From the NCBI RefSeq assembly GCF_038005985.1, contig NZ_JBBOUI010000001.1:3430001-3494000 (forward strand): DNA of 64,000 nt, given 5' to 3'. Position 1 is the stretch's first letter. Every line of letters starts with the position of its first letter. The notes beneath the pieces were generated by a model. That model made no database searches and was not told the origin of the DNA. It saw nothing but the letters and a program-made list of their open reading frames with translations. Positions 11,340 to 63,736 of this stretch are shown here, one piece after another. Source of the DNA: Solibacillus sp. FSL R7-0682 (lineage in GTDB: Bacteria > Bacillota > Bacilli > Bacillales_A > Planococcaceae). The translations under genes were made by a program, and so were the position numbers.

Positions 11340-11540
11340 ATCCGCGTAGGTATCATTTGGGTAATGTAAAGGCAGGTCTCCTGGCTTATGCTTGAACATT
11401 TCGTATCGCCTTCCCAATAAACATAATCAGTGGCTTTTGATACAAACTAGCATTTACAGTGGCGGGACCGCATCGGATTTGAACCGATTTCCCTTTTACT
11501 CCTTATTTTCAAATAAAAATAAGAACCTTCACACGTAATA
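11340..11540 (-). ncRNA. Cobalamin riboswitch
   Basis: The minus strand carries the B12 box AAGCCAGGAGACCTGCC (11387-11371). The conserved upstream elements AAAAGGGAA, AATCCGATGCGGTCCCGCC and CCACTG are at the right spacing for the AdoCbl aptamer. It precedes a terminator hairpin and the B12 uptake operon, so it should shut the operon off when cobalamin is plentiful. Boundaries are approximate. Confidence 0.95.
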
Positions 11541-11627
11541 TTCATTTTTTACTTCTTACATTATAGCGGAAATTAAATTTAATGTATGTAACGATTGGAA
11601 AATTTTCAGAAAATTCCTCTATAATCA

Positions 11628-55475: not shown

Positions 55476-55487
55476 TGCAGTTGCTTT

Positions 55488-55526
55488 ACGTGGTTCGTAA
55501 CCATCCCACGTTAAAAAACTAGGAGG
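55488..55526 (+). ncRNA. PreQ1-I riboswitch
   Basis: ACGTGG ... CCACGT stem enclosing the loop TTCGTAACCATC, followed by the A-rich tail TAAAAAACTAGGAGG. The tail pairs into the loop as an H-type pseudoknot and carries the queT ribosome-binding site, so binding of preQ1 should block translation. Confidence 0.88.
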
Positions 55527-55534
55527 AATTTAAT

Positions 55535-56020
55535 ATGAAGGTAAAATTTTTAGCAACGAGTGCAATTATTGCAGCTCTTTATATTGCTGTGACTATGCTT
55601 GTTGCACCAATTAGCTTTGGTCAGGTACAATTCCGTATTGCAGAGCTGTTCAACCATTTAATCGCCTTCAACCCACGCTATATGCTTGGTGTTGTATTAG
55701 GTGTATTTATTTCGAATTTCCTTATGTCGTCAGTCGGTCCAATTGATTTGATTTTCGGTGTAGGACATACAATCATTACACTTGGGATTTTTATTTTCAT
55801 TTGTAAATTCGTAAAAAATATTTGGGCACGTTTAGTGATCAATACACTATTATTCACGTTCACAATGTTCATTATTGCAGCACAATTGAACCTTGTGCTT
55901 GACTTCCCATTCTGGGAAACTTGGGCTTTTGTAGCGTTTGGCGAATTTGTCGTATTAGCAGTAAGTGCACCAATTATGTATGCTTTAAATAAACGACTCG
56001 ATTTCAAAAAATTAATTTAA
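55535..56020 (+). CDS. queT: Queuosine precursor ECF transporter QueT
   Basis: 161-residue integral membrane S component with five to six spans: LATSAIIAALYIAVTMLVAPISFGQVQFRIAELFNHLIAFNPRYMLGVVLGVF (read in parts). VQFRIAE is typical of QueT. It imports preQ1 or a related base with a shared ECF module encoded elsewhere. Regulation by the preQ1 riboswitch 9 bp upstream confirms the assignment. Confidence 0.95.
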   Translation: MKVKFLATSAIIAALYIAVTMLVAPISFGQVQFRIAELFNHLIAFNPRYMLGVVLGVFISNFLMSSVGPIDLIFGVGHTIITLGIFIFICKFVKNIWARLVINTLLFTFTMFIIAAQLNLVLDFPFWETWAFVAFGEFVVLAVSAPIMYALNKRLDFKKLI

Positions 56021-56122: not shown

Positions 56123-56215
56123 AGGGATATTCAATTTGTTCGTGATGCGGTAGTAGGTTACGAGAGCGTGACCACCGTTGTAGCAAAGTTGAGAAGAGCC
56201 GAGTTTAGTTGAGTA

Positions 56216-56453
56216 AAATTGATGAATAAGAAGAGTAGCATTGCTTGTTTTGTTTAGAGAGCGCATGAGTGGTGAAAATGCGTCAAAACCGTAATGTGAA
56301 TGGGCCTTATGAAAGCTACTAGCACTAGTTAGTGGACGGTTCCCTGCCGTTATCAGGTTTTAAGTGGAAGCAAATTTTTGCTTCAATCGAGGTGGCAACG
56401 CGGTATACATCGTCCTCAACAAAAGATTTTTCTTTTGTTGGGGGCTTTTTTTA
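56216..56453 (+). ncRNA. T-box leader, tryptophan (UGG specifier)
   Basis: Stem I begins near GAATAAGAAGAGTAGC and contains AGAGAGC. The specifier region GTGAATGGG has TGG at 56301-56303 followed by a purine. The conserved T-box sequence is CGAGGTGGCAACGCGG (56388-56403). The terminator is CCTCAACAAAAG / CTTTTGTTGGGGG with a following T run (56414-56453). Uncharged tRNA-Trp should open the trp operon. Confidence 0.92.
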
Positions 56454-56485: not shown

Positions 56486-57472
56486 ATGTCATTAAAACTA
56501 CGATTTCGTACTTCTATGAAAAAAGTAAATGGGGATTTATTAACACCCATTTCTATTTTTCAACGCCTACAAGGCAAACGAAAGTTTTTACTTGAAAGCT
56601 CTGCCAAATATGAAGGAAACGGGCGCTATTCCTTCATCGGGGTCAATCCACGCAAAACTTATAGTGGCATTGATCAGAAGCTTCGCGACTTTTCGCATTT
56701 AACACAGAAGGAATATTTTTATGAAGGGGAGCTCGTTCAATTATTAAAGCAGGTAATGCCGCGTGTATCATCGCATACGGAATATCCGTTTACTGGTGGT
56801 GGAATTGGCTATATGCATGCATTACCAAACACCGTACCTACCCTACAGTTTCACGTGTATGACACGCTCATTATTTTCGATCATCTAACAGAGGAAATTG
56901 CCGTTTTCCATACAAATATCGAAGCCGAGCAAGTAGAGCCAAATATTGATGAACTTATTCATGAGCTCTTTTCTACTCCTACACCAGCTGAAACTAGCTA
57001 CACCCTTAGTTCATTTGAAAAGCAATCCGGCTCAACCTATTCGGCAGTATTTTCAGGCGATGCCTTTGCCCTTTATCGTAATTTAAGAGTCCAATTTGCT
57101 TCAGCGTATATGTATTATGTCGAATTTGATGAATGCACGCTCATTGGAACGTCCCCTTCTAGCTATATACAAATTCGGGACGGAGCCCTTTCGACAATGA
57201 ATCATGAAATAAATATTGAGCGTTTTTGCCAACAGGAGACCATTGAAAAAGCACAACATCAGCAGCAAGGTCAGCTCACTTCTTCGTTCCATGCCATTGA
57301 TGTTGTCAAGGAGCTTCAGCCTCCACATGGATTAATTGGTTATATCGGCTTTAACGGTCAGGTTGACTTTACAGCCCCAACAAATATGATGACGATTATT
57401 GGTCAGGTTGCCCATATCCAAACATTACACAGTGACACCAGTCCATCATTCAGCTCACTTATGAAAGGATGA
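56486..57472 (+). CDS. Shortened TrpE-like protein lacking the catalytic core
   Basis: 328-residue protein aligned from memory with anthranilate synthase component I (about 500 residues). Kept: N-terminal allosteric elements LLES (35-38) and RYSFIGVNP (47-55), GGGIGYM, DAFALYRNLR, YMYY (208-211), GTSP (221-224), and the end KELQPPHGLIGYIGFNGQ (275-292). Missing: the stretch between GTSP and KELQP that normally holds IAGTRxRG, KExAEHxMLVDLxRND, SHVMH and PAGTxxGAPK, i.e. the chorismate and Mg-binding site. The frame is open throughout and a good ribosome-binding site precedes the ATG. Anthranilate synthesis by this protein is not expected. Whether it is a dying gene or a retained Trp-binding protein is unclear. 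First gene of the T-box operon. Confidence 0.82.
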   Translation: MSLKLRFRTSMKKVNGDLLTPISIFQRLQGKRKFLLESSAKYEGNGRYSFIGVNPRKTYSGIDQKLRDFSHLTQKEYFYEGELVQLLKQVMPRVSSHTEYPFTGGGIGYMHALPNTVPTLQFHVYDTLIIFDHLTEEIAVFHTNIEAEQVEPNIDELIHELFSTPTPAETSYTLSSFEKQSGSTYSAVFSGDAFALYRNLRVQFASAYMYYVEFDECTLIGTSPSSYIQIRDGALSTMNHEINIERFCQQETIEKAQHQQQGQLTSSFHAIDVVKELQPPHGLIGYIGFNGQVDFTAPTNMMTIIGQVAHIQTLHSDTSPSFSSLMKG

Positions 57473-57475
57473 AAC

Positions 57476-58516
57476 ATGATGACTTTATCTCCTTATATTA
57501 CGAAACTTACAAGCAATGAACATCTTTTATTTCAAGAGATGCAACAAGCTGCCGAGCTAATTTTTGATGAACAAACACCGAAAGAAGAAATTGCGTTATT
57601 TTTACTCGCAATGTGTCAAAAAGGTGAAACTGCTCAGGAAGTAGCTGGCCTTGCGTCTATTATGAAAGCTCATGCTGTTTCAGTAGATGTGCCAGAAGGT
57701 TTATATATCGACAACTGCGGGACAGGTGGCGACGGCTTGCAAAGCTTCAACATTAGTACGACTTCCGCCTTTGTTTTAGCAGGCGGTGGCATATTTGTAG
57801 CGAAGCATGGCAATCGTAAAATTTCAAGTGCCTCTGGTAGCTCTGATGTGCTAGAAGCACTTGGCATTTCCTTATTACCCAATACATCGCAAACAACAGA
57901 TTTACTTAAAAAACATGGCATTGCCTTTTTACATGCGCCAAATATGCATCCAAAATTAAAGCGAATCGGCGAAATTCGACAAGCACTTGGTAAACCGACA
58001 ATTTTCAACTTAGTTGGACCGTTAACAAATCCCGTGCCATTAAAAACCCAGTTCGTTGGCATTAACCGTCCAAATTTTACAACCGATTATGCGGAAGTAC
58101 TGCATTTATTGGGGCGAGAGCGAGCGATTGTCGTTTCCGGCGCTAAGGGAATGGATGAAGCTTCTCTTGATGATGAAAATACATTCGTACTACTTGACCA
58201 TGGCGACATTATCCCCTTCAAATTACGTGCGGAAGATGTAGGACTTACCCCGCAACCACTATCAGCAATCCGTGGTGGAAGCCCTGTAGAAAATGCACAA
58301 ATTTTACGGGATCTATTAAAAGGAAAGCAAAGTGTCTACTTCGATACAGTTATTTTAAATGCAGGGATCGCATTCTTTGCTTACGGGTTAGCGGACACGA
58401 TGAAGGAAGGTATTGCCATGGCGAAAGAGAGCATCTTCTCTGGACGCGCCTATGAAAAGCTTGAAAATGTTGTCGCATATAGTCAAAAAGCGTTACAGGA
58501 GGAATCAGCGAAATGA
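57476..58516 (+). CDS. trpD: Anthranilate phosphoribosyltransferase
   Basis: 346-residue enzyme joining anthranilate and PRPP. PRPP-binding NCGTGGDGLQSFNISTTSAFVLAGGG, KHGNRKISSASGSSDVLEALG, and the catalytic region NMHPKLKRIGEIRQALGKPTIFNLVGPLTNP; GMDEASLDDENTF near the C-terminus. All motifs are intact, in contrast to the upstream TrpE-like protein. It starts 3 bp after that gene's stop. Confidence 0.96.
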   Translation: MMTLSPYITKLTSNEHLLFQEMQQAAELIFDEQTPKEEIALFLLAMCQKGETAQEVAGLASIMKAHAVSVDVPEGLYIDNCGTGGDGLQSFNISTTSAFVLAGGGIFVAKHGNRKISSASGSSDVLEALGISLLPNTSQTTDLLKKHGIAFLHAPNMHPKLKRIGEIRQALGKPTIFNLVGPLTNPVPLKTQFVGINRPNFTTDYAEVLHLLGRERAIVVSGAKGMDEASLDDENTFVLLDHGDIIPFKLRAEDVGLTPQPLSAIRGGSPVENAQILRDLLKGKQSVYFDTVILNAGIAFFAYGLADTMKEGIAMAKESIFSGRAYEKLENVVAYSQKALQEESAK

Positions 58517-59307
58517 CAATTTTGGATAAAATTATTGCTCAAAAAAAATCTGAATTACCGGGACTACTAGCTAAAAACCCAGCATTTCAACCAATAGTTA
58601 AAATTCGACCGTCCTTATACGAAACATTAACGACAGCTACTACATTACAAATCATATCTGAAATGAAGCGTGCCTCCCCTTCCAAGGGCGATATAGCAAC
58701 ACATATAGATCCTGTAGAACAGGCGTTAAAGTATGAAGAAGCTGGCGCAGCATGCATTTCTGTTTTAACAGAAAGTGCGTTTTTTAAAGGCTCATTTGAA
58801 GATTTAAATGCCGTAGCAAATGCTGTACAAATTCCTGTGCTTTGTAAAGACTTTATTATTCATGAAGTACAAATTGATTATGCAAAGGCTGCTGGTGCCT
58901 CGGTCGTTTTACTTATTGTAGCGGCATTATCTGAGGAACAGCTTCATGCCCTCTACACATATGCTACGTCCCAGCAGTTAGAAGTACTTGTAGAAGTGCA
59001 TGATGTCGAAGAATTACAACGTGCCCTTCTCATCGGTGCGAAAATAATCGGTGTTAATAACCGTAACTTAAAAACATTCGACGTATCTCTACAGAAAACT
59101 GTCGAAATTGCCGCTCAACTCCCTCCTACGCCGATTGCATTTATTAGTGAAAGTGGTATTTGGAGTGTAGAAGATGCGCAATTTGTGGCGAATGCTAGAG
59201 CAAAAGCTGTTTTAGTTGGCGAATCTTTGATGCGTAGTGATGATGTCAAAAACTCTCTACAATCGCTGAAAATCGACATTACAACGAAAGTTGGCGAAAA
59301 TTCATGA
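58513..59307 (+). CDS. trpC: Indole-3-glycerol phosphate synthase
   Basis: 264-residue TIM-barrel enzyme: ISEMKRASPSKGDI, YEEAGAACISVLTESAFFKGS, PVLCKDFIIHEVQIDYAKAAGAS, VLVEVHDVEEL, GVNNRNLKTFDVSL and ISESGIWSVEDA. Converts CdRP to indole-glycerol phosphate. Overlaps trpD by 4 bp and trpF by 4 bp. Confidence 0.97.
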   Translation: MTILDKIIAQKKSELPGLLAKNPAFQPIVKIRPSLYETLTTATTLQIISEMKRASPSKGDIATHIDPVEQALKYEEAGAACISVLTESAFFKGSFEDLNAVANAVQIPVLCKDFIIHEVQIDYAKAAGASVVLLIVAALSEEQLHALYTYATSQQLEVLVEVHDVEELQRALLIGAKIIGVNNRNLKTFDVSLQKTVEIAAQLPPTPIAFISESGIWSVEDAQFVANARAKAVLVGESLMRSDDVKNSLQSLKIDITTKVGENS

Positions 59308-59921
59308 CAAAGGTAAAAATTTGCGGATTAAAAGAAATTGAACATGTGGAAGCAGCAGTTAAGGCTGGCGCTGATTTTATTGGATTTATGTTTGCGCCTA
59401 GTAAACGCCGTATTTCGGTAGAGGTAGCAAGCACGCTCGCTCAAACGATTCCGAGCTACGTAAAAAAAGTTGGGGTATTTGTAAATGAAGACCCTGAAAT
59501 GATTAAACAAATTGCTCAGCAAGTTGGGCTTGATTTCATTCAATATCATGGGGATGAAGAACCGGAATTGATTCAACAAATCGGACTCCCTTCAATTAAA
59601 GCATTTTCAATTCGAACAAAAGAGGATGTAGAACACGCAGCTCGCTATGATGTGAACTACTATTTATTTGACGCACCTGGAACCGATTATCGTGGGGGTA
59701 GCGGAAAGTCGTTTGATTGGACATTGCTTGATGAATTGAACATTCCATTAGAAAAAGTGATTTTAGCAGGAGGTTTAAATGAGGCAAATGTCGCTTTAGC
59801 GACGGTACTTGTCGAACCGTTTGCTGTCGATGTCTCGAGTGGTGTCGAAATTGCCGGACGTAAGGATTCGACATTAATTGCAAGCTTCATTGAGAAGGTG
59901 AAAGGAGAGCTCATTTTATGA
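59304..59921 (+). CDS. trpF: Phosphoribosylanthranilate isomerase
   Basis: 205-residue TIM-barrel isomerase: [36 protein letters not shown] with the catalytic Cys, [35 protein letters not shown] with the catalytic Asp, [10 protein letters not shown] and VDVSSGVEI. Length and motifs are complete. ATGA overlap with trpB. Confidence 0.97.
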
Positions 59922-61105
59922 AGACAATAAAAGGACGATTCGGACAGTTTGGTGGACAATTTGTTCCGGAAACACTGATGACACCGTTGCAGGAATTAGA
60001 GGAAGCGTATGAGCAAGCAAAAAATGACCCGAGCTTTCAGCAAGAGCTCGATTATTATTTAAAACAATATGTCGGTCGTGAAACACCTCTCTACTATGCC
60101 GAGCGCCTAACGAAAAAAATGGGCGGTGCAAAAATCTATTTAAAGCGAGAGGATTTAAACCATACTGGGGCACATAAAATAAATAATGCGATTGGGCAGG
60201 CATTACTTGCAAAACGAATGGGTAAAAAGAAGATTGTTGCAGAAACAGGTGCAGGACAGCATGGGGTAGCAACTGCCACAGCCTGTGCACTTCTCGATAT
60301 GGAATGTATCGTGTATATGGGGGCAGAAGATGTACGCCGCCAACAGTTAAATGTTTTTCGAATGGAGCTGCTTGGTACGAAGGTAATCGCCGTTGACAAA
60401 GGCTCCGCTACATTAAAGGACGCAGTGAATGAAGCACTGCGCCATTGGGTAACGCATATTGAAGATACGCACTATATTCTGGGGTCAGCACTTGGACCAC
60501 ATCCGTTCCCTACGATTGTACGAGATTTTCAGCGTATTATTGGGGATGAAACACGTGAGCAAATTTTAATACAAGAAGGTCGTCTGCCGGATACGGTGAT
60601 CGCTTGTATCGGTGGAGGTAGTAATGCAATCGGAATGTTTTATCCATTTATAGAGGATGAAGACGTTGCTTTATATGGGGTAGAAGCGGCCGGTGCTGGT
60701 GTCAATACAGACAAGCATGCGGCAGCAATTCACGTTGGAAAAACCGGCGTATTGCACGGTGCGTTCATGTATTTATTGCAGGATGAAAATGGCTTTGTAC
60801 AGGAGGCACATTCGATTTCTGCAGGACTAGATTATCCTGGCGTTGGTCCGGAGCATTGCTATTTACATGAAAGTGGACGTGCAAGTTACCCTTCCGTGAC
60901 GGATGAACAAGCACTTATTGGTGTGAAATTATTATGTGAAACAGAAGGCATTTTACCTGCGTTAGAAAGTGCACATGCCATTTATTATGCGGCGGAGTTT
61001 GCAAAAAATTGCTCTCAAGATGCAATCATTGTCGTGTGCTTATCTGGCCGAGGGGATAAAGACGTCCATACGTTAATGGAGAAGCTTGGAGGTGAAGCGA
61101 AATGA
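59918..61105 (+). CDS. trpB: Tryptophan synthase beta chain
   Basis: 395-residue PLP enzyme: [13 protein letters not shown] start, the PLP lysine in [54 protein letters not shown] and [10 protein letters not shown]. Joins indole with serine in a complex with TrpA, encoded directly after it with a 4-bp overlap. TrpB1-type. Confidence 0.98.
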
Positions 61106-61881
61106 CATTACAACAAGCAATGGAGCAAGTGTTAGCAAATGGAGATAAAGCATTTGTTCCGTATATAATGGCTGGTGATAATGGACTGGAAACATTAAAG
61201 CCAATCATTTTAAAATTACAGCAACTTGGCGTATCAGCTATCGAAGTGGGGATTCCATTTACAGATCCGGTAGCAGATGGACCAGTCATTGAAAAGGCTG
61301 GCGAACGCGCCCTGTTTCATGGTGTCACACTACGCAAAATTTTAGATGAACTTAAAAGTTTTCGTGAGGACATAAACGTACCTCTCGTAGCGATGACCTA
61401 TTTAAATCCAATCTTAGCGTATGGCATTGAAAACTTTGCACAAGATGCGGCACTTGCTGGCATAAAAGGGATCATCGTACCAGATATGCCTTATGAAGAA
61501 AGTAAAATTATTCACCCCGCGTTAAAGGCACATAGCATCGCTTTAGTTCAACTAATATCATTAACGAGCCCACCAGAGCGTGTTAAAAAACTAGCGAAGG
61601 CAAGTGAAGGCTTTATTTATGCTGTTACAGTCAATGGGATAACAGGTGAGCGTTCTGACTTTACGAAGGATTTGTCAGCTCATTTTGCGCATTTAAAATC
61701 GCTTAGTACGATTCCTGTCTTAGCTGGTTTTGGTATTTCTATTCCGGATCATGTAAAGGAATTCGGTTCATATGCGGATGGTGTCATTGTCGGCAGTAAA
61801 ATTGTCAGTGCATTAGAGCAGCAGGACTGGACTTCGATTGAGTCTCTTGTTCAAGCAACGAAAAGAGAACGGGCAATTTAA
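61102..61881 (+). CDS. trpA: Tryptophan synthase alpha chain
   Basis: 259-residue TIM-barrel lyase: [44 protein letters not shown] with catalytic Glu and Asp, [42 protein letters not shown] and [12 protein letters not shown]. Last gene of the trp operon. I see no strong terminator directly after it. Confidence 0.97.
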
Positions 61882-62201: not shown

Positions 62202-63015
62202 TTATTCTTCTGTCCCACCAAATGCCCCTTTTAAATCTGAATCTTTAATTTGGACATTTTCTTCTTTCAATAGCCGAGCTTCTACTGTTGCCCAATCTGT
62301 TTCAGCTGCTTTCTTCTCTTTTAATAAAGCCGTAATTTGTTCTTTTTGATCTTCTAAAGAAGCGTATTCCTCGACTTCTTTTTTATCAATCAGCTGAATA
62401 ATGTAATAGCCATCATCAGATGACATCGTTAAAGGCTCCTGTCATTTCACCAACTGTAAACCAATCTAATTCTCCCCCATTTTCAGCGGAGGCTGCATCT
62501 TGAGAATGTTCCTTTGCTAAAGCTGCAAAGTCTTCCCCTGCCTGAAGCTTGTCATAAAGTTCTTGCGCTTCTTGCTCTGTTTCCACTAAAATTTGACGAG
62601 CACTCAGCTCATACTTCCCTTGTTCGTAATAGTTCGTAATTTCCTCGTCAGTAATTTCTACATCTTCCATCGCTTTTTGTTGTAAAATTTGGAAGCGAAT
62701 ATTATCTTTAAATGTTTCTTCTGTCAGACCATTTTCCGCCAGTGCGGATTCAAATTCATCACCGTACATTGTTTGATAGTTGTCAAATTGCTCTTGTATT
62801 TCGTCGTCAGCCGCTGCATAACGGGCAGATAAAATTTGATCAATGACAACCTGCTCTAATAAAGTCGTTCCTGCTAATCCTTTAATTTGCTCGTAAAAAT
62901 CGCCTTGTGTAATGTTCCCGTATGCAGTTGTTGCAACAATATTATCTTTGTCATTATTACACGCCGCTAGCATTAATGAGGAAGCAAGTGTAACTGCTAC
63001 TACTGTTTTTTTCAT
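62202..63015 (-). pseudogene. prsA: PrsA-like foldase split by an internal deletion
   Basis: Parvulin-type lipoprotein foldase. The 5' part (62416-63015) has the signal peptide and lipobox LAAC, an N-terminal chaperone domain, and most of the PPIase domain: SARQILVETEQEAQELYDKLQAGEDFAALAKEHSQDAASAENGGELDWF (read in parts). It stops at MTGAFNDVI. The 3' part (62202-62426) resumes in another frame with SDDGYYIIQLIDKKEV and the C-terminal helix. About 15 residues normally between GAFND and GYYIIQL are missing, so this is a deletion with frameshift and not a single-base error. The second part has an ATG overlapping the first by 11 bp, so coupled translation of two fragments is possible. Confidence 0.82.
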
Positions 63016-63031
63016 TTTTTTCTCTCCTAAT

Positions 63032-63736
63032 TTATGCGGTAAAGTTGCCGTCATAGCTTAGCATGACGGCCGAGCTTACACCGATAATCTTTGATAAGGA
63101 AGATACGAATGCTGCGTCATCTCCTTTTAAGCGCACTTCGTAGGTTGCTTCCATTTCAGTATCTGCCATAACAGATTTTGATTTTAATAAATAGCGTTTT
63201 GATGCTACCTTTAGTAATTTTTCTATTTCTGCATTTGTTTCTTCTTGTTCGAATTTCACAACGACTAAATATGGGTTTTCGATCACAATTTTATTTTGGA
63301 ATACAATAATTACCAATCCGATAATAACTGATCCGATTGCCGCTAATGGAATGAATCCAGCACCACATAAAATACCAACAACTACTGACCAGAATAAGAA
63401 AATTAAATCCATTGGATCTTTAATCGGTGTACGGAAACGAACGATTGATAACGCACCAACCATACCTAGTGATAATAGTACGTTTTGGCTAATCCCCATA
63501 ATAACTAGTGCTGTTGCAAGGGACATAATCATTAATGAAATGTTGAAAGAATGAGAGTAGACAACTCCGTTAAACGTCTTTTTGTATACGAAGTAAATAA
63601 AGACACCGAGTAAAAATGCACTCGCTAAACCGATTAATGCATCGATTAAAGAAAACGTTGCTGTTTTTTCTAAAAAACTTGATTTAAAAATGTCATCAAA
63701 GGTTGTGACATTCGTTGCTGCTAAAAGCGTAAACAT
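63032..63736 (-). CDS. DUF4956 membrane protein
   Basis: 234-residue protein with four to five spans in the first 150 residues and the family core GMVGALSIVRFRTPIKDPMDLIFLFWSVVVGILCGAGF. A cytosolic C-terminal domain (about 155-234) follows. DUF4956 genes commonly sit beside VTC-domain genes, as here. A role in polyphosphate-related membrane biology is suspected but unproven. Confidence 0.88.
   Translation of the reverse strand: MFTLLAATNVTTFDDIFKSSFLEKTATFSLIDALIGLASAFLLGVFIYFVYKKTFNGVVYSHSFNISLMIMSLATALVIMGISQNVLLSLGMVGALSIVRFRTPIKDPMDLIFLFWSVVVGILCGAGFIPLAAIGSVIIGLVIIVFQNKIVIENPYLVVVKFEQEETNAEIEKLLKVASKRYLLKSKSVMADTEMEATYEVRLKGDDAAFVSSLSKIIGVSSAVMLSYDGNFTA

Follow-up and report, generated by a model that had tools for sequence, protein, structure and literature searches.

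A TrpE relative without catalytic elements heads the trp operon of Solibacillus and is probably a tryptophan-sensing regulatory protein

Results

The trp operon and its surroundings

The window, i.e. the whole stretch of 64,000 nucleotides that was analysed, originates from Solibacillus sp. FSL R7-0682 (contig NZ_JBBOUI010000001.1, positions 3,430,001 to 3,494,000) and carries a trp operon on its plus strand. The following features were assigned, with coordinates counted within the window:

56213..56420, plus strand: T-box leader with the Trp specifier UGG (Rfam RF00230, 133.1 bits against a gathering threshold of 93, full model 1-219)
56486..57472, plus strand: short TrpE pseudoenzyme of 328 aa (ORF, profile scans, alignment, selection, model)
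56588..56632, plus strand: LLES-X10-S Trp-binding motif, residues 35-49, LLESSAKYEGNGRYS (aligned columns; motif according to PMC6437058)
56882..56884, plus strand: H133, counterpart of the M. tuberculosis dimer-interface H170 (His in 40/40 pseudoenzyme rows)
57107..57118, plus strand: YMYY, residues 208-211, Trp-contact segment (alignment)
57338..57367, plus strand: GYIGFNGQVD, residues 285-294, with the counterparts of Y445 and D453 (alignment)
57476..58516, plus strand: trpD (NCBIfam TIGR01245, 344.8 bits, cut-off 199.05)
58513..59307, plus strand: trpC (NF001371, 320 bits, cut-off 307)
59304..59921, plus strand: trpF (NF002300, 224.9 bits, cut-off 212)
59918..61105, plus strand: trpB (ORF of normal length; name from sequence and position)
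61102..61881, plus strand: trpA (ORF of normal length; name from sequence and position)

The T-box that a first-pass annotation had placed ahead of the operon was confirmed by the RF00230 match. In 35 of 35 T-boxes from operonic and stand-alone loci, a TGG following GAA occupied the identical column of the alignment, which was read by eye, and this column is presumably the specifier. The stop codon of the short trpE gene is followed by trpD after 3 bases. As had been annotated, trpDCFBA appeared intact, with trpD, trpC and trpF above their curated cut-offs and with trpB and trpA, whose names were given from sequence, as normal-length open frames. An importer is encoded on the opposite strand, upstream of the operon and ∼1.4 kb away from it. 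The nearby TrpXYZ-like importer of the earlier annotation was thereby recovered in part, as its binding protein is TrpX-like but scored 224.7 bits, below the curated cut-off of 390; as a sign of lost synthesis it has no bearing on the case. The scan of the window returned no T-box for this importer.

Several further elements were observed in the window. A preQ1 riboswitch was located immediately before a QueT-like gene (55484-56020), upstream of the trp operon. We take this gene to be QueT, and it gave no match against NCBIfam. A preQ1 riboswitch was also found close to the trp operon in 16 of the 20 relatives' loci of one set and in 7 of 14 of another. The minus strand carried a cobalamin riboswitch at 11354-11545 (111.7 bits) and, at 62416-63054, a PrsA-like foldase that covered positions 1-193 of a 287-position profile (138.6 bits, cut-off 361) and is apparently a shortened PrsA.

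The first gene encodes a TrpE relative without the catalytic elements

The first gene of the operon had been described as a 328-aa TrpE relative free of stops and frameshifts. The frame at 56486-57472 is indeed free of stops in the ORF list, and its product passed the Pfam cut-off for Anth_synt_I_N (PF04715; 85.4 bits, E 5.7e-24, cut-off 23). Chorismate_bind (PF00425) was matched over 48 of 257 positions with 23.1 bits, under the 27-bit Pfam cut-off, and the NCBIfam model trpE_most (TIGR00564) gave 110 bits, below its cut-off of 517.7.

Alignment with the catalytic TrpE of this genome (462 aa) showed that 137 residues are gone, in eight blocks (37, 26, 23, 15, 14, 14, 5 and 3 residues), and compared with the 457-aa relative from group g6 (see below) 129 residues are gone in six blocks, the edges of which vary with the alignment used. 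The 37-residue block extends from IAGT to MLVDL and includes the KEIAEH motif, the 26-residue block contains GAPK and the 15-residue block contains the C-terminal EYEET. The 23-residue block ends with DIFQVVL of the 462-aa TrpE, and a 14-residue block surrounds its YMEIERY. As the missing residues lie in separate, element-bearing blocks, the loss is spread across the active-site elements, and there is no single 130-residue gap. The earlier statement that some 130 central and 25 further residues were lost was therefore correct as to the loss, but not as to its shape.

The segments LLES, YMYY and GYIGFNG, annotated as retained, were all found in the window protein. Of the allosteric Trp site it has L36, E37, S38, S49, Y208, M209, Y286 and D294, and so do all 16 aligned sequences of the genus. 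The position of P291 of the Serratia pocket is occupied by Ala, and S64 and W66 of the M. tuberculosis enzyme are replaced by G46 and Y48.

A complete TrpE-TrpG pair is present elsewhere in the genome

An intact 462-aa TrpE adjoins TrpG at C1:1.50 Mb, 2 Mb from the short trpE. A PabB-PabA pair at 90 kb and, at 965 kb, a MenF-like enzyme bring the complete chorismate enzymes of the genome to three; these names were assigned from sequence and neighbouring genes. The reported lack of a trpG nearby is correct for the window but not for the genome. A T-box preceded the TrpE-TrpG pair in 14 of the 14 genus loci checked, a complete TrpE was present in 16/16 genus genomes, and all 16 catalytic TrpEs of the genus kept every tested catalytic residue.

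The first-pass annotation had considered a cell that lacks anthranilate synthesis and imports tryptophan or anthranilate. The TrpX-like importer gene ∼1.4 kb away agrees with this, but the genome-wide search for trpE, trpG and pabAB, suggested as a way of detecting such a loss, returned TrpE-TrpG and PabB-PabA in addition to the MenF-like enzyme, and the tested residues are intact in all 16 catalytic TrpEs of the genus. With a complete TrpE-TrpG the Trp pathway is complete on paper, so the auxotrophy reading fails, and on the predicted gene content dependence on import appears barely credible. Auxotrophy and a missing trpG were ruled out on the same grounds.

The short form is conserved and under purifying selection in Solibacillus

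A search of related genomes recovered the short form, free of stops, in 16/16 genomes of the genus, with lengths of 325 to 332 aa; the other 15 proteins were 64-71% identical to the window protein. The genus was identified as Solibacillus by its named relatives, since three named Solibacillus records carry the short form. A full-length TrpE at this locus in sister strains, which the first-pass annotation had named as the mark of a recent deletion, was found in 0 of the 16 genus genomes. Recent deletion and assembly error were ruled out by the presence of the short form in all of them. Full-length operonic copies do occur in other genera, lacking catalytic residues in g8 and g6 and having them in g15, g19 and the Sporosarcina type.

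Over the pairs with a dS of 0.1-1.5 the short TrpE had a median dN/dS of 0.10 (35 of 120 pairs), which indicates purifying selection on the short form. The corresponding median of trpD was 0.041 (22 pairs), and that of the catalytic TrpE, calculated from 14 sequences and 20 pairs, was 0.057. The constraint on the short TrpE is about half that on trpD or the catalytic TrpE, yet it is strong. By region, dN/dS was 0.074 in the N-domain, 0.099 in residues 263-297, 0.13 in residues 189-235 and 0.28-0.39 in the linkers and the tail; the tightly constrained regions are those that hold the Trp-pocket residues. The marks of a pseudogene, i.e. stops, frameshifts and a neutral dN/dS, were not found among the 16 stop-free genes with their median of 0.10.

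Trp-pocket residues are kept and catalytic residues lost across six genera

The alignment comprised 40 operonic rows with short or decayed forms from six genera (16 from g1, 11 of the 32 from g8, 5 from g11, 4 from g3, 3 from g9 and 1 from g6), hereafter pseudoenzyme rows, together with 13 other operonic and 32 stand-alone catalytic rows. One or two of the four g3 rows are probably duplicates of other rows. Residues are numbered as in M. tuberculosis TrpE, for which the Trp-site and dimer residues LLES-X10-S, Y284, M285, Y445, D453 and H170 have been described, partly from docking (PMC6437058); P291 is numbered as in Serratia TrpE, for which Trp-contact residues and the chorismate residues G328, T329, H398 and G485 are available (PMC10464499).

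All 40 pseudoenzyme rows kept L54, E55, S56, R65, S67, H170 and D453. Y284 was kept in 39/40, M285 in 30/40 (Leu in the other 10), Y445 in 29/40, with Phe in all 11 g8 rows, and P291 in 18/40. The presumed Mg ligands of TrpE are E358, E361, E495 and E498. Among the pseudoenzyme rows, E358 and E361 were left in 1/40 each (both in g6), E495 in 2/40 (g3) and E498 in 0/40. H398 was kept in 15/40 (g8 10/11, g3 4/4, g6 1/1) and G328 in 16/40, these being all 16 rows of g8, g3 and g6. Every one of the 16 genus rows had gaps at E358, E361, H398 and E498, and at E495 15 of the rows had a gap and one had G. Together with the low Chorismate_bind score, these gaps confirm that the chorismate/Mg motifs are missing, as had been annotated. 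Because the g6 copy keeps E358 and E361, its inactivation is less certain, being indicated by T329, G485, E495 and E498. The stand-alone catalytic rows had all tested catalytic residues in 32/32.

Residual catalysis, either as an ammonia-dependent anthranilate synthase or in another chorismate reaction, would be in line with the homology and with the His at H398 and the Gly at G328 in the less trimmed g8, g3 and g6 forms. The genus form, however, is gapped at E358, E361, H398 and E498 in 16/16, and the residue alignment makes this reading highly improbable.

In 31 of the 32 stand-alone rows F took the place of L54, so that the motif reads LFES rather than LLES. This residue was considered as a sign of lost feedback in the catalytic TrpE and dropped, as 16/16 copies from genomes without a pseudoenzyme share it.

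Over the 40 pseudoenzyme rows, 73 columns had at least 95% of one residue. R56, T58, T135 and N144 were present in 39-40 of the 40 pseudoenzyme rows, versus at most 1 of the 13 operonic TrpEs with catalytic residues, which hints at new constraints; shared descent may contribute to the pattern. These invariant, carrier-specific residues outside the pocket could also reflect a role other than Trp sensing, e.g. as an assembly or stability partner comparable to the inactive TrpA of Chlamydia trachomatis (PMC3937554), which offers a precedent. Such a role leaves unexplained why Trp-contact residues were kept while most of the chorismate domain was trimmed, and we regard it as rather unlikely.

Co-variation with a putative client, either the catalytic TrpE or TrpD, gave no useful signal. 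At a 90% criterion, no column set the 29 catalytic TrpE rows of pseudoenzyme-bearing genomes apart from the 16 rows of genomes without one. For TrpD, one conservative T/S column at 85% separated carriers from non-carriers (34 versus 15; of 38 carriers, four were left out because their loci covered too little of TrpD). A Trp-binding pseudoenzyme might have TrpD or another operon product as its client and make the anthranilate phosphoribosyltransferase (AnPRT) Trp-sensitive, and the enteric AnPRT is described as Trp-inhibited only when complexed with anthranilate synthase (PMC10464499). The position of trpD would suit such a complex, as its start in the 16 genus genomes ranges from 1 base ahead of the short gene's end to 7 bases beyond it. 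However, tight gene spacing is usual across this operon and the finding of a single T/S column counts against this reading; we consider a TrpD client unlikely, though somewhat less so than the assembly role.

Operonic TrpE forms, their presence and their loss in related genera

Operonic relatives were searched for in 261 genomes of the family. The genus names of the g-groups were inferred by matching sequence and length to named loci. The relatives measured about 440-460 aa in g8 (Lysinibacillus; 32 genomes, 11 read), 461 aa for a frame in g6, 383-396 aa in g9 (Lysinibacillus odysseyi group; 3 genomes), 341-379 aa in g3 (Caryophanon; 3 genomes) and 257-272 aa in g11 (Metasolibacillus by named loci; 5 genomes). 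In a second search of 250 genomes, with a profile built from the operonic forms, two matches per genome were obtained in g1 (16/16), g8 (31/31), g11 (5/5), g9 (3/3) and g6 (1/1), and further in 2 of 3 g3, 3 of 3 g19, 2 of 4 g15 and one g17 genome. The g3 genome without a second match is a 2.1-Mb, 90%-complete assembly. Stops inside some g11 matches were taken to mark where the shorter protein naturally terminates, because the matches extend beyond that point.

In 14 of the 14 sampled genomes of g14 and g18 the T-box was followed by trpD, with no TrpE-like frame in the preceding 1.3-1.5 kb and the sole TrpE elsewhere; the short gene was absent from all 7 sampled g18 genomes. Genome G162 (g15) likewise had the T-box leading directly to trpD. 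As these 15 relatives pass straight from T-box to trpD, the operon does not need the short TrpE. One g14 genome (G142, locus L151) had an operonic TrpE only, and seven others of g14 (L220, L225-L230) had a stand-alone copy only, their operon starting at trpD.

In three of four genomes of g17 (Sporosarcina-type) the operonic TrpE, with its catalytic residues present, was the only TrpE and was accompanied by PabB and MenF; the fourth (G184) had one further chorismate enzyme. At the Sporosarcina-type loci L147-L150, L058, L067 and L071, LVDLGRND of the operonic TrpE has drifted to LVELGRKDM, LVELSKREM or LVALSKKEM, with EH and E.ET kept. A Sporosarcina-like TrpE locus (L070) was found in a record titled Arthrobacter, probably a wrong name or a foreign contig.

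The history of the genes was examined in quick gene trees with one support value each. In the TrpE tree, the stand-alone TrpEs formed one clade (99) beside the TrpEs of Cytobacillus and Neobacillus (88), and the operonic forms clustered with the Sporosarcina-type and other TrpEs of the family. The full-length g8 forms grouped with the trimmed g3 forms (95), and the trimmed g9 forms with g6, g11 and g1 (98); inside the latter group, the full-length g6 form joined the trimmed g11 and g1 forms (80). As deletions are not regained, active-site trimming arose at least two times; judging from these groupings it probably took place three times. In the TrpD tree, g18 was placed within the carriers (84 for the fork of g18, g9, g11 and g1, 96 with g3 added and 99 with g8 added), and the stand-alone TrpE tree did not resolve the placement of g18 among the carriers. 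Since the TrpD of g18 nests among those of carriers and g18 has no short gene, the gene can be lost and is dispensable there. Retention is thus common but not universal, a pattern that favours a function which is useful without being essential over a role as mere spacer.

The short gene could also be a decaying one, held only by its place between T-box and trpD through spacing or translational coupling. Its first position in the operon, the loosely constrained linkers and tail and an overall dN/dS above that of its neighbours fit such a decay. The dN/dS of 0.10 and the open frames in 16/16 do not, and neither does the direct passage from T-box to trpD in G162 and the 14 sampled g14 and g18 genomes; decay is therefore improbable. 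A spacer or polarity role was likewise disfavoured by the T-box-trpD operons that lack the gene.

Structure models

Confident AlphaFold models were obtained for the 328-aa protein (pLDDT 87.9, pTM 0.88) and for a 257-aa form (pLDDT 90.4, pTM 0.88). Both superposed on TrpE structures over almost their full length. Against Trp-bound Serratia TrpE (1i7s), the 328-aa model gave a Z of 30.1 over 315 residues at 2.6 Å and the 257-aa model a Z of 22.3 over 248 residues at 2.7 Å. Complete TrpEs were part of the AlphaFold input alignments and favour a TrpE-like outcome, so the models indicate that the TrpE fold can be built from the trimmed chain, which does not imply that the protein adopts it. The Foldseek and VIA lists include PabB, MbtI, MenF and other proteins of the same fold and are uninformative on function.

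Discussion

At the level of sequence, the short TrpE has lost its catalytic elements, largely keeps the residues of the Trp pocket and the dimer interface, is under purifying selection and coexists with a complete TrpE-TrpG pair that is encoded separately behind a T-box with the same specificity. Lost catalytic residues, kept ligand-site residues, a kept predicted fold, purifying selection and a live TrpE in 16/16 genomes are what a regulatory pseudoenzyme presents. We infer that the protein binds Trp and would act through contact with another protein. The first-pass annotation had proposed a Trp-binding regulator derived from TrpE, and its conservation, selection and Trp-pocket retention support this as a putative role. 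The initial observation is thus real and the auxotrophy reading wrong, and the regulator reading appears well supported up to the steps of binding and partner choice.

The short TrpE is probably a Trp-sensing regulatory protein rather than a broken gene, and we hold a Trp-sensing regulatory role of some kind to be likely. Our preferred specific reading, to which we assign a probability of roughly 45%, is that it is a catalytically dead paralogue kept as a Trp-binding regulatory subunit that would most likely contact the catalytic TrpE and shift its response to Trp. In M. tuberculosis TrpE, the Trp site, an adjacent loop and a histidine communicate across the dimer (PMC6437058), and because the residues of this communication are kept in the short TrpE, a non-catalytic subunit paired with the catalytic TrpE is favoured. 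The likeliest contact would be a mixed dimer of the two, formed via the LLES-X10-S loop and the H170-like histidine, and this dimer would alter the response of the catalytic TrpE to Trp. When uncharged tRNA-Trp increases, the T-box would raise the short TrpE, and the amount of the subunit might set the feedback threshold.

Several observations weigh against this regulatory-subunit reading. The catalytic TrpE has its own Trp residues, so a helper may be unnecessary. No TrpE column separated genomes with and without the short form, the gene appears dispensable in g18, P291, M285 and Y445 vary, S64 and W66 are replaced, and dN/dS is roughly double the values for trpD and the catalytic TrpE. The catalytic TrpE is named as partner with slightly less than even confidence. 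More tentative is the fuller picture of an allosteric half on its own, i.e. a T-box-dosed Trp-binding subunit that would be paired with TrpE, set the feedback threshold, link tRNA charging to inhibition by free Trp and have been trimmed independently in several genera, down to ∼257 residues.

Should the regulatory-subunit reading hold, evolution seems to have taken a textbook allosteric enzyme and set its feedback sensor apart from the active site. Living relatives display the stages: a catalytic operonic copy beside a second TrpE, a full-length dead form, partly trimmed forms, a minimal form and absence. Such a series permits a direct test of the steps by which an allosteric domain turns into an independent regulator. 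The case also calls for caution in annotation, as a trpE-like gene heading a trp operon may not encode an enzyme; six genera have the catalytic copy elsewhere.

Comparison with known systems

Regulatory dead paralogues are already known, and none was found for anthranilate synthase in the open-licence literature. The portions of that literature available to us described no TrpE pseudoenzyme and no truncated, inactive or duplicate TrpE, including in accounts of Solibacillus and Lysinibacillus Trp genes, which is a weak form of absence. With TrpE itself (TIGR00564; PF04715 and PF00425) the short form shares the predicted fold, the N-terminal domain, LLES-X10-S, the dimer-interface R and H and the first position in a Trp operon, but it lacks the chorismate/Mg residues together with the elements on which they lie. 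Trp T-boxes of Firmicutes lie upstream of trpE or other Trp genes, and, in the part of that account available to us, the controlled gene is annotated as an anthranilate synthase, unlike here (PMC2494555). The inactive TrpA of Chlamydia trachomatis is a dead Trp-pathway subunit retained in its operon; in contrast to the short TrpE, it is full length, is required by TrpB and, in the available part of the report, is not described as a sensor (PMC3937554). In the trypanosomatid prozymes, i.e. the AdoMetDC prozyme and the dead DHS paralogue, a dead paralogue controls the live copy (PMC5201418, PMC3663545); these are eukaryotic activators that act as heteromers, and membership in this group is not claimed for the short TrpE. 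HisZ, the regulatory subunit of short-form ATP phosphoribosyltransferase, is an inactive enzyme paralogue that binds the end product His and through which feedback acts on the pathway's first step (PMC10795190). The short TrpE resembles it in principle, as a dead paralogue of an enzyme with a putative part in end-product feedback on an amino acid pathway, again with no claim to membership. HisZ, however, originates from histidyl-tRNA synthetase and has a proven complex with HisG, whereas the short TrpE, known here from its sequence, derives from the first enzyme of the pathway itself.
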